A stretch of 44,152 bases of DNA, taken from the NCBI GenBank assembly GCA_016217935.1, contig JACRFJ010000024.1:1-44152 (forward strand). Direction: 5' to 3'. Of this stretch, positions 12,089-19,500 are shown piece by piece (the first letter of the stretch is position 1; each line of letters opens with the position of its first letter). The notes beneath the pieces are model-generated. The model saw only the letters and a program-made list of their open reading frames with translations. It had not been told where the DNA came from and made no database searches. A program made the position numbers and the translations under genes. The DNA comes from Candidatus Kaiserbacteria bacterium. GTDB taxonomy: Bacteria > Patescibacteriota > Minisyncoccia > Phycocordibacterales > UBA2100.

Positions 12089-12706
12089 CTATTTTTCCGA
12101 ATACCGTGCCTCGCCGGGCAGCACGTCGATCTTATTGAAAGGATAGAGGCGCAAGAACACGCGGCCATTGATGTCCTCACGCGGAAGTGTTCCCCATAAG
12201 CGAGAGTCGGCGGAGACCTTGCGGTTATCACCGAGAACAAAAAACTGATCGGGGCCGAGTGTGACTTTCATATTGGTTGCTCCACCGAGGTTGCCGGATG
12301 AAAGATAGCTCTCATCGATAGTAAATCCTTCTGGATGTTCGGGATTGATAATGCGGACTACGTTGCCACTGAGGACGACGGTCTCTCCCGGAAGGCCAAT
12401 GACGCGTTTAATGAGCGCACGGCTCGTATTTTGGGGCAGCTTGAAGACGATGACATCACCGCGCTTCGGGTCATCGATCTTGTAGATAACTTTATCGATA
12501 ATGAGGTAGTGGAAATTGTCGAAGGTGGGCTCCATCGAGGCACCTGAGACGATATATGGGGCCGCAATGTAGAAGCGAATGATGAGCGCAAGCCCGAGCG
12601 CTATGATTGTGTACGCAATGAGGGATCGCTGCGACGATGCTTCCCTCATAACAGGACCGTTCACCCCGTTAGAAAAATCGTTTCTATTGCCGGGGGTGTT
12701 GTTCAT
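12089..12706 (-). CDS. lepB: signal peptidase I
   Basis: Membrane serine protease that cleaves signal peptides of exported proteins. The 205 residues hold one transmembrane anchor (29-46), the nucleophile Ser57 in SGASMEPT and the general base Lys100 in ALIKRVIGLPG, then box D/E VLGDNRKVSADSR (157-169). Residues 1-19, ending FSNGVNGPV, are encoded by one arm of a 99-bp palindromic element, so they are probably not ancestral. An alternative start at M20 (12649, MREASSQRS) gives a more usual N terminus. The ATG at 12706 overlaps the stop of a 20-codon ORF as ATGA, which suggests translational coupling. Confidence 0.9.
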   Translation of the reverse strand: MNNTPGNRNDFSNGVNGPVMREASSQRSLIAYTIIALGLALIIRFYIAAPYIVSGASMEPTFDNFHYLIIDKVIYKIDDPKRGDVIVFKLPQNTSRALIKRVIGLPGETVVLSGNVVRIINPEHPEGFTIDESYLSSGNLGGATNMKVTLGPDQFFVLGDNRKVSADSRLWGTLPREDINGRVFLRLYPFNKIDVLPGEARYSEK

Positions 12707-12761
12707 AGGCGCAACACCCTCTTTTCCTGTAAGAGCCCATCAGAATCTTTTCTAACGGGGT
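12663..12761. repeat. 99-bp palindromic element on the lepB start
   Basis: Perfect 14-bp inverted arms, ACCCCGTTAGAAAA (12663-12676) and its complement (12748-12761), enclose an inner hairpin GGGTGTTG/CAACACCC (12694-12701 and 12712-12719). The lepB ATG lies in the 10-nt apical loop. Read on the minus strand, the arms encode NPVRK on entry and FSNGV on exit. Confidence 0.75.
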
Positions 12762-12765
12762 TCAT
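12703..12765 (-). CDS. 20-codon leaderless ORF upstream of lepB
   Basis: Starts MNPVRKDSDG and ends with a TGA overlapping the lepB ATG (ATGA). Its own ATG lies 8 nt after a TAGAAT -10 element with no leader, so it is probably the first thing translated on the lepB mRNA. Apart from the ATG it lies within the palindromic element. My reading is that this ATG was the original leaderless lepB start and that the element landed just behind it, breaking the frame; re-initiation at the overlapping ATG would rescue lepB. The peptide itself probably has no function. Confidence 0.5.
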   Translation of the reverse strand: MNPVRKDSDGLLQEKRVLRL

Positions 12766-12773
12766 GTGGCAGC

Positions 12774-12779
12774 ATTCTA
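12774..12779 (-). promoter_or_regulatory. -10 of the lepB operon
   Basis: TAGAAT on the minus strand ends 8 nt before the ATG at 12765. It would drive the 20-codon ORF, lepB and the HisRS-like gene. Confidence 0.5.
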
Positions 12780-13621: not shown

Positions 13622-14296
13622 TCAGTGTCGAGGTGTCACCTTGACATCGCGATAGTACTCAAATGCCTCCTGGATCATCTTGCGCGGTGGTAATTGTGTC
13701 TCAATCTCGAATATTGAAGTGTCGAGAATAGCACGTAGTCGGTGCTTGGGATCTGAGAAAGCGCCAAAACTTGAATACTGATATGTCTTCAGACGATCTG
13801 TGAGCCTATGTATGTTTTTTGCGTGCCCTTGCTTCCACCGCTGCTCAAATAGTTCCGCTGGGTTGCAATGAATGTATTGCAGTACTCGCTGCAGATAGCG
13901 ATCATTATCAATGTGACGTGATCGGAATGGTTTTGCAAAGAGATTCCCGGATCTCTCGTATTTGATATTGAAGTACATAGCATATGAGGTTCCAACTTTC
14001 CTCATAAACGATGTAATTCCGTTCCCCGAGATTTCTCGAAGGAGTAGATGGAAGTGATTTGGCATCAAGCAAAATGCACCAACTCCAACCAAAGAGCCTT
14101 TTCTTTCTATGGAGAGCAGATCCGCAAGCGAGACTGCACGTCGATCACTTCTGTGCGTTGAAACAGTGTTATTGCAAAGATAGAGCAGACTCAAGAATCG
14201 TTCGTAATCGGCATAGTTAGTAAATGTTTTCCGTTTATCGATACCGCGGGTGTAGCAGTGATACCACTCTTCTGAAGAAAAACGATCTCTGTTCAT
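13622..14296 (-). CDS. Y1/HUH REP-associated transposase (RAYT type)
   Basis: 224 residues of the IS200-like Y1 transposase fold. The HUH metal motif is H81-F-H83 in LMPNHFHLLL, and the catalytic tyrosine lies in SYAMYFNIKYERSGNLF (Y105 or Y108). WYHCYTRGIDKRKTF (11-25) is the usual RAYT opening. Such enzymes cut single-stranded DNA at palindromes (REP sequences). Both ends carry matching palindromes, and the right one forms the last codons and stop of the gene (KVTPRH). A TGcTATATT -10 element ends 7 nt before the ATG, so it is probably leaderless. Confidence 0.88.
   Translation of the reverse strand: MNRDRFSSEEWYHCYTRGIDKRKTFTNYADYERFLSLLYLCNNTVSTHRSDRRAVSLADLLSIERKGSLVGVGAFCLMPNHFHLLLREISGNGITSFMRKVGTSYAMYFNIKYERSGNLFAKPFRSRHIDNDRYLQRVLQYIHCNPAELFEQRWKQGHAKNIHRLTDRLKTYQYSSFGAFSDPKHRLRAILDTSIFEIETQLPPRKMIQEAFEYYRDVKVTPRH
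13626..13646. repeat. REP-like palindrome, 3' copy of RAYT 1
   Basis: TGTCGAGGT-GTC-ACCTTGACA: 9-bp arms with one G:T pair. It is inside the transposase's final codons. Confidence 0.65.
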
Positions 14297-18809: not shown

Positions 18810-18832
18810 ATAATGACATCGGATGTCGTTAT
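18810..18832. repeat. REP-like palindrome, 5' copy of RAYT 2
   Basis: ATAATGACATC-G-GATGTCGTTAT: 11-bp arms with one G:T pair. It ends at the transposase -10 element. Confidence 0.7.
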
Positions 18833-18837
18833 ATACT
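18832..18837 (+). promoter_or_regulatory. -10 of RAYT 2
   Basis: TATACT ends 6 nt before the ATG at 18844 and overlaps the last base of the palindrome. Confidence 0.5.
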
Positions 18838-18843
18838 GATGAG

Positions 18844-19500
18844 ATGGAGTTGTGGCACGTACTCAATAGGGGAGTTGAAAAGAGAAATATCTTTCTCGAT
18901 GTTCGCGACCGGTTTCGCTTTGTTCACGGCCTGCTTCTTTTCAACACAAAACGACCGGCCAATAACACAACATATATTTTGTCCGACAATCATAACGACT
19001 TCCGAAGTCGTTATGATCCCGAAGAACGAATCGTCGATGTCCACGGCTGGTGTCTTATGAAAAATCATTACCATTTGCTTCTTTCTGATAAAGTTGATGG
19101 GGGCCTGACATTATTTCTGCGAAAATTAAACATCGGATACGCAAAATATTTTAACGAACGCTACGATAGAGATGGAGCACTGTTTCAAGGGAAAACCAAA
19201 AAAGTCCCAATTCGTAAAGACGCACACTTTCTGCATATACTCAACTATATTCACTTGAATCCTCTGGATTTTGACTCCGCTAACAAAGGTTGGCGAAACG
19301 TCGGAATTAAAGATTTGAGAGGTGCATCGACCTACTTGGCGAAGTATCGTTGGAGTAGTTATCAAGATTACTGTGGACACAAAAATTTCCCTTCTGTCAC
19401 GAACACTGAATATTTTTCAGGTTTTTTCAAAAATGTGAAATCGTCGACTGAGAAATATCTCAAGGATATTCAGCTCGATTCCAGCCATATGCTGGAATAA
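18844..19500 (+). CDS. Y1/HUH REP-associated transposase (RAYT type)
   Basis: 218 residues, a second Y1 transposase only distantly similar to the one at 13622-14296. It starts with the RAYT opening WHVLNRGVEKRNIF (4-17). The HUH motif is H75-Y-H77 in LMKNHYHLLL, and the tyrosine lies in GYAKYFNERYDRDGALF (Y99 or Y102). The ATG at 18844 fits the -10 position and the family start; an ATG 21 nt upstream lies in the palindrome. Palindromes of the same type flank it on both sides, and a third copy is inside the frame, encoding residues 49-58 in a variable loop just before the HUH strand. The gene is A+T-richer than its neighbours. Confidence 0.88.
   Translation: MELWHVLNRGVEKRNIFLDVRDRFRFVHGLLLFNTKRPANNTTYILSDNHNDFRSRYDPEERIVDVHGWCLMKNHYHLLLSDKVDGGLTLFLRKLNIGYAKYFNERYDRDGALFQGKTKKVPIRKDAHFLHILNYIHLNPLDFDSANKGWRNVGIKDLRGASTYLAKYRWSSYQDYCGHKNFPSVTNTEYFSGFFKNVKSSTEKYLKDIQLDSSHMLE
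18989..19017. repeat. REP-like palindrome inside the RAYT 2 coding region
   Basis: A perfect 29-nt palindrome: 14-nt arm ATCATAACGACTTC, 1-nt centre, complementary arm. It shares the ATAACGAC/GTCGTTAT ends with the flanking copies and keeps the transposase frame open. Confidence 0.75.

Follow-up and report, generated by a model that had tools for sequence, protein, structure and literature searches.

We estimate at about 65% the probability that the palindrome covering the start of lepB, an essential gene of secretion that encodes a signal peptidase, in the 44,152-nucleotide stretch of Candidatus Kaiserbacteria DNA analyzed here (the window), is a non-autonomous copy of a mini-transposon that in its full-length form encodes a GIY-YIG nuclease, and that the interrupted gene was rescued by translational coupling. 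As the sequences show, the elements form a widespread family bounded by 12-bp terminal inverted repeats (TIRs; CCCCGTTAGARR and variants); its insertions target TNNA, of which all four bases become duplicated. In the mechanism that we propose, the nuclease would recognize the TIRs and make a 4-nt staggered cut at TNNA, host repair and ligation would finish the insertion, and the short palindromes would be moved in trans. At lepB, the old promoter and the old ATG would now drive a 20-codon leader with a TGA overlapping the new lepB ATG inside the element, and lepB would have acquired an N terminus ending in FSNGV.

On the minus strand of the window, the -10 element TAGAAT is followed by 8 nt, ATGAA, the 97-bp palindrome, TGAA and the remaining lepB (Table 1). 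The TIRs match at 12 of 12 positions over 12 bp and the 4-bp duplication is perfect on both sides, as expected of a MITE. The original prediction had described a 99-bp element with perfect 14-bp inverted ends; that repeat is real (12663-12676 and 12748-12761), but its outer A/T pair belongs to the 4-bp target duplication and the element proper measures 97 bp. The -10 element, the ATG at 12765, the 20-codon reading frame and the TGA overlapping the lepB ATG (12706) are all as it had described, and the FSNGV codons, which it had placed at lepB residues 14-18, had to be moved to residues 11-15.

Table 1. Features of the lepB start region, in window coordinates.
Feature	Position	Strand	Basis or remark
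Non-autonomous palindromic mobile element, 97 bp (proposed)	12664..12760	-	TIRs and 4-bp duplication; joined flanks align with 16/16 uninterrupted relatives
Terminal inverted repeat (TIR) CCCCGTTAGAAA, right end in lepB orientation	12664..12675	+	
TIR CCCCGTTAGAAA, left end in lepB orientation	12749..12760	-	
Target duplication, TTCA on the + strand = TGAA on the lepB strand	12660..12663 and 12761..12764		TNNA rule
-10 element TAGAAT, putative ancestral lepB promoter	12774..12779	-	28 direct-start lepB loci of the genus have a -10-like motif with a spacer of 6-9 nt to the ATG
Ancestral leaderless lepB start codon, now leader ORF start	12763..12765	-	Empty sites in relatives
20-codon leader ORF MNPVRKDSDGLLQEKRVLRL*, stop overlapping the lepB ATG	12703..12765	-	
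lepB, signal peptidase I (Peptidase_S26), putatively restarted within the element	12089..12706	-	Pfam PF10502 E=2.9e-41
FSNGV codons, lepB residues 11-15, from TIR and target duplication	12662..12676	-	
Inner hairpin, lepB ATG in loop	12694..12719 (arms 12694-12701 / 12712-12719)	-	

The lepB genes of relatives preserve the site as it was before the insertion. Among 52 genomes searched, 48 contain lepB and 48 loci were examined, duplicates of loci already included (L226, L227) being omitted. The joined flanks of the window element align across the junction with each of the 16 uninterrupted relatives compared, and in one of these (L183) the -10 element is followed by 8 nt and ATGAATGTTCCTGTGATG. 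A direct ATG behind a -10 element is found at 29 of the 48 loci, in 28 of them with a spacer of 6-9 nt; no -10 call was made at L179, L190, L205 and L213, and L223 contains unknown bases. Two direct-reading loci (L202, L209) retain arm remnants that are read through. By these empty sites it is shown that the insertion hit the TGAA of a leaderless ATGAA start of lepB, which is where the insertion had been predicted.

The palindrome folds strongly (-39.3 kcal/mol for the window strand, z = -3.46, with 1 of 200 shuffles equally good), and arms stay matched where interiors diverge, for example in L012/L047. Both would suit a non-mobile regulatory hairpin or protein-binding site that lepB inherited vertically, yet the occurrence in unrelated genes and phyla, the nested copies, the target duplications and the empty sites make that reading extremely improbable; the last two rule out a conserved lepB hairpin as the whole explanation. 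As had been claimed for an apical loop, the lepB ATG is indeed situated in a hairpin loop, that of the inner hairpin, but local folding around it is no better than that of shuffles, both in the window and at the eight other loci with coupling (z between -1.11 and +1.23), so that its position in the loop looks incidental and a conserved ATG-in-loop structure is unsupported. An identity as integron attC site was set aside on account of how the attC core sites are oriented.

At 12 lepB loci of the genus, a leader ORF begins 6-9 nt downstream of the -10 element, and at nine of these its TGA overlaps the lepB ATG as ATGA, namely at the window locus itself (L178) and at L185, L186, L187, L191, L193, L198, L214 (which has no recognizable arm) and L215. 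At the other three, leader and gene are 4 nt apart (L212), 22 nt apart (L210) or neither (L195). L211 and L216, which also have the ATGA overlap, were excluded from the count for an implausible -10 element. From this conserved arrangement we infer that ribosomes finishing the leader would restart on lepB, and at the level of sequence the predicted rescue by translational coupling is thus supported. It is rather unlikely that translation of lepB begins at an internal codon past the element (M20, window 12647-12649), which would make leader and coupling irrelevant: the in-frame ATG at lepB residue 20 does correspond to a methionine common in relatives (PVM), but the ATGA overlap is present even at L186 and L193, where this methionine is absent, and the uninterrupted relatives have a leaderless ATG upstream of it. 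The nine coupled loci are partly kin by descent (L187 and L198 are sisters). On the tree, the insertions at the lepB start require three changes, at least two of them forced by well-supported branches, and since most of the tree is unresolved, single and repeated insertion events are not fully separable.

Comparison across genomes confirmed the lepB palindrome as a mobile element, as had been suspected: lepB orthologs exist in which the N terminus is uninterrupted, and there are many further genomic copies with target duplications. The sequence ACCCCGTTAGAAA was found in 32 of the 98 genomes of the relatives search (own genome counted), mostly as inverted pairs, and the reversed pattern, used as control, in 0 of 98. 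A species scan of 84,980 genomes gave at least 116 stretches with the TIRs, and among the matches listed the hosts are Parcubacteria, Deltaproteobacteria, Omnitrophota, Nitrospirae, Nitrospinota, Phycisphaerae and other Planctomycetota, Stahlbacteria, KSB1 and Elusimicrobia, a range much wider than the Parcubacteria named in the original prediction; a single genome can have as many as 189 arm matches. Known phages, plasmids and IMG/VR viruses gave no match, one of these searches being limited to exact arms and a restricted length range. No second exact copy of the palindrome exists in the own genome, which is 94% complete at 764 kb; one further, diverged copy lies at C38:122-237 (L387), with arms CCCCGTTAGAGA and flanks TGTA/TTGT.

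An exact 4-bp target duplication flanks 119 of 205 distinct copies, and duplications of 1, 2, 3 and 5 bp were found in 5, 5, 7 and 6; after this count, the duplication of 2 bp considered earlier was superseded. The 119 exact duplications begin with T in 117 cases and end with A in 116. Among 322 copies, exact duplications flank 184 of the 285 short ones and are rarer around the long ones (17 of 37). In 430 scanned loci, which were mostly chosen through this TIR, 12/12 inverted repeats starting with [CTG]CC within an exact TNNA duplication belong almost solely to this TIR family, and eight other repeat starts gave none. Copies are also nested in a 67-bp member, with duplications CAAG and CTTG (L011, L024). 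The arms vary in concert, being identical in 166 of 207 copies, 54 of which carry the same change in both arms.

Several minor features of the family may be added. L012, L038 and L047 apparently represent a common insertion in different species, with strongly diverged interiors and with arms that persisted, apart from one altered end base in L038. Mismatched 4-bp flanks occur as TTYA...TRAA in 25 and as TRAA...TTYA in 0 of the 322 copies, for which we have no explanation. Copies with a TTGA duplication (L028, L037, L039, L097 and others) often split a -35-like TTGACA, and one side restores the box.

Start codons are frequent targets. Exact-duplication copies whose duplication covers an ATG number 19 of 59 in a Nealsonbacteria genome (G102), 20 of 36 in the window's own order (window included) and 21 of 88 in the species scan, and in 19, 20 and 19 of these, respectively, the covered ATG is followed by an in-register open frame (60 codons or more, or 30 or more where the frame runs off the contig). 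In the Nealsonbacteria genome, 318 of 118,562 strand-counted TNNA sites, or about 0.5% of the physical sites, coincide with the first ATG of an ORF that is 60 codons or longer. Compared with random TNNA sites, insertion in start codons is enriched about 60-fold there, and part of this enrichment must come from the survival of harmless insertions. The fates of the interrupted genes differ. NPVR.../...SNGV peptides were repeatedly seen at gene starts, in line with the suggestion in the original prediction of NPVRK...FSNGV peptides at protein ends, and at L013, L053 and L090 they form in-frame read-through fusions. At the window copy there is no read-through but an overlapping stop-start, as at L048, L060 and L159; a GTGA overlap is found at L011, L027 and L050, and most copies in the Nealsonbacteria genome provide a new internal ATG.

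The same TIRs also bound copies of 276-290 bp in which a single ORF encodes a GIY-YIG nuclease of about 85 residues, a form absent from the original prediction. The Nealsonbacteria genome has two such copies of 278 bp with exact duplications (enclosed ORF PF01541, E=1.5e-16). The catalytic motif is conserved among full-length copies; the L338 copy lacks the conserved Glu. The nuclease ends in ...RFLSLTG, its final residues being contributed by the right TIR and the stop usually by the duplication. Within the genus of the window, L011 has a 277-bp full copy with an exact duplication in a start codon, and its nuclease frame begins at the ATG of the target gene and ends in a TGA overlapping GTG. 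Among the first loci, no long TIR pairs (180-4000 bp) were found by a filter confined to near-GAAA arms that had no partner close by, and this filter missed the coding copy of L011, which emerged among the 322 copies.

The association of the TIRs with the nuclease depends on the similarity of the protein. Flanking inverted repeats match at 12/12 and 11/12 positions in 21 and 1 of 27 GIY-YIG loci with at least 60% identity to the query, in 7 and 5 of 16 loci with 50-60% and in 1 and 2 of 24 loci below 50% (edge loci L310 and L323 dropped), and shuffles gave 0 and 5 of 335. Protein similarity also correlates with left-TIR similarity (r=0.49, as high in 0 of 2000 permutations), with five loci without CC motif omitted and the left TIRs of L347, L362 and L324 out of register; L348 and L402 carry GAAA-type TIRs like the lepB copy. 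Within the phylum, 252 of 379 genomes contain GIY-YIG homologs. Forty further regions, composed of 20 from among the remaining PF01541 hits in chosen genomes and 20 lower-ranked phylum homologs, contained 37 GIY-YIG hits, nine of them with 12/12 repeats and five of these of the CCCGTTAG type.

In our reading, the lepB palindrome derives from this GIY-YIG-encoding mini-transposon and is non-autonomous (MITE-like); the nuclease would then be what moves the elements. We know of no GIY-YIG enzyme that acts as a strand-transferase. The TIR elements could also be MITEs moved in trans by another enzyme, with the GIY-YIG ORF as a homing-type passenger in some of them, which we regard as a serious alternative but an unlikely one. 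GIY-YIG copies that match are present in G101, G102, G106, G107, G109, G118 and G119, and the heavy carriers G098 and G099 (both Deltaproteobacteria) and G117 yielded no GIY-YIG ORF with CCCCGTTAG TIR among the hits examined, G099 being partly masked; nor was a TIR-bracketed GIY-YIG seen among the loci viewed in the own genome. The rarity of exact duplications in full-length copies likewise fits a passenger, and Y1_Tnp genes are present in 11 of 11 genomes searched. Against a passenger, the full-length copies, whether from Patescibacteria, Nitrospinota, Planctomycetota or Omnitrophota, contain no gene but the GIY-YIG ORF, and TIR variants track protein variants. Y1_Tnp is unsupported as partner in the manner of REP/RAYT, as 0 of 30 loci are bracketed by the TIRs (L245 has a copy adjoining), and so is a DDE transposase of an IS4/IS5-type MITE, with DDE_Tnp_1 in just two of eight heavy carriers and a TIR pair at 0 of 6 loci. 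The window contains two Y1_Tnp (IS200-like) ORFs (13622-14296 and 18823-19500, the second below the Pfam cut-off), and the own 0.76-Mb genome has 13 Y1_Tnp hits.

With movement by the GIY-YIG nuclease as the preferred reading, we lean slightly towards the view that the copies of about 280 bp represent a new class of DNA transposon, present in many phyla, inserting in start codons and among the smallest autonomous ones, whose sole enzyme would be the nuclease of about 85 residues; at least one copy (L011) would borrow the ATG of its target and hand translation back via the overlapping stop. Free-standing or intron-encoded GIY-YIG homing endonucleases of the I-TevI type have the same catalytic domain and are tiny mobile nuclease genes. 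GIY-YIG ORFs are reported from CPR rRNA insertions that seem to lie outside spread by homing (PMC11270868). The full-length form shares the catalytic domain with homing elements, but its ORF is bounded by TIRs and it occupies many unrelated TNNA sites, with an exact duplication in 17 of 37 long copies, whereas homing elements occupy one allelic site without duplication.

According to published descriptions, MITEs such as Correia/NEMIS, RUP and ERIC are short, non-coding, TIR-bounded, multicopy and often gene-adjacent, with target duplication, and Rickettsia palindromic elements (RPE) are palindromes of about 100 bp that are read in frame in unrelated protein genes (PMC2229807, PMC10969869). 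The short elements described here resemble those MITEs in size, lack of coding sequence, TIRs, target duplication, copy number and frequent position beside genes, but differ in duplicating TNNA rather than having the TA ends typical there, in the full-length partner encoding a GIY-YIG nuclease, in the entry into start codons and in one TIR being shared across many phyla. In-frame peptide insertion (L013, L053, L090) is common to them and RPE, from which they are set apart by description through other host phyla, the start-codon site, the clear TNNA duplication and the coding relative. REP/RAYT (Y1_Tnp) elements are likewise small palindromes in Y1_Tnp-rich genomes, but here the TIRs are symmetric with a 4-bp duplication and the Y1_Tnp genes are unbracketed. 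Among the matches listed for the open PMC literature, taken by their titles and abstract openings, PMC12455944 included, there is no description of a prokaryotic GIY-YIG element with TIRs.

If the GIY-YIG protein mobilizes these elements, a nuclease class known from homing would have given rise to a transposon with TIRs and target duplication of less than 300 bp, and a minimal transposition system would become testable. The recurrent NPVR...SNGV peptides at the ends of Parcubacteria proteins would then be explained as footprints of a mobile element, which calls for caution against annotating such N termini as real conserved sequence, and the elements would offer a natural series of gene survival after start-codon insertion, by read-through, stop-start overlap or new internal start.

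GIY-YIG ORFs without these TIRs often abut pieces of tRNA genes (L304, L312, L319, L321, L325, L329, L333, L421, L426, L427), and in some loci these pieces, as read by eye, are seemingly duplicated on both sides. Judged from this arrangement, such small GIY-YIG genes seemingly have another insertion habit of their own.
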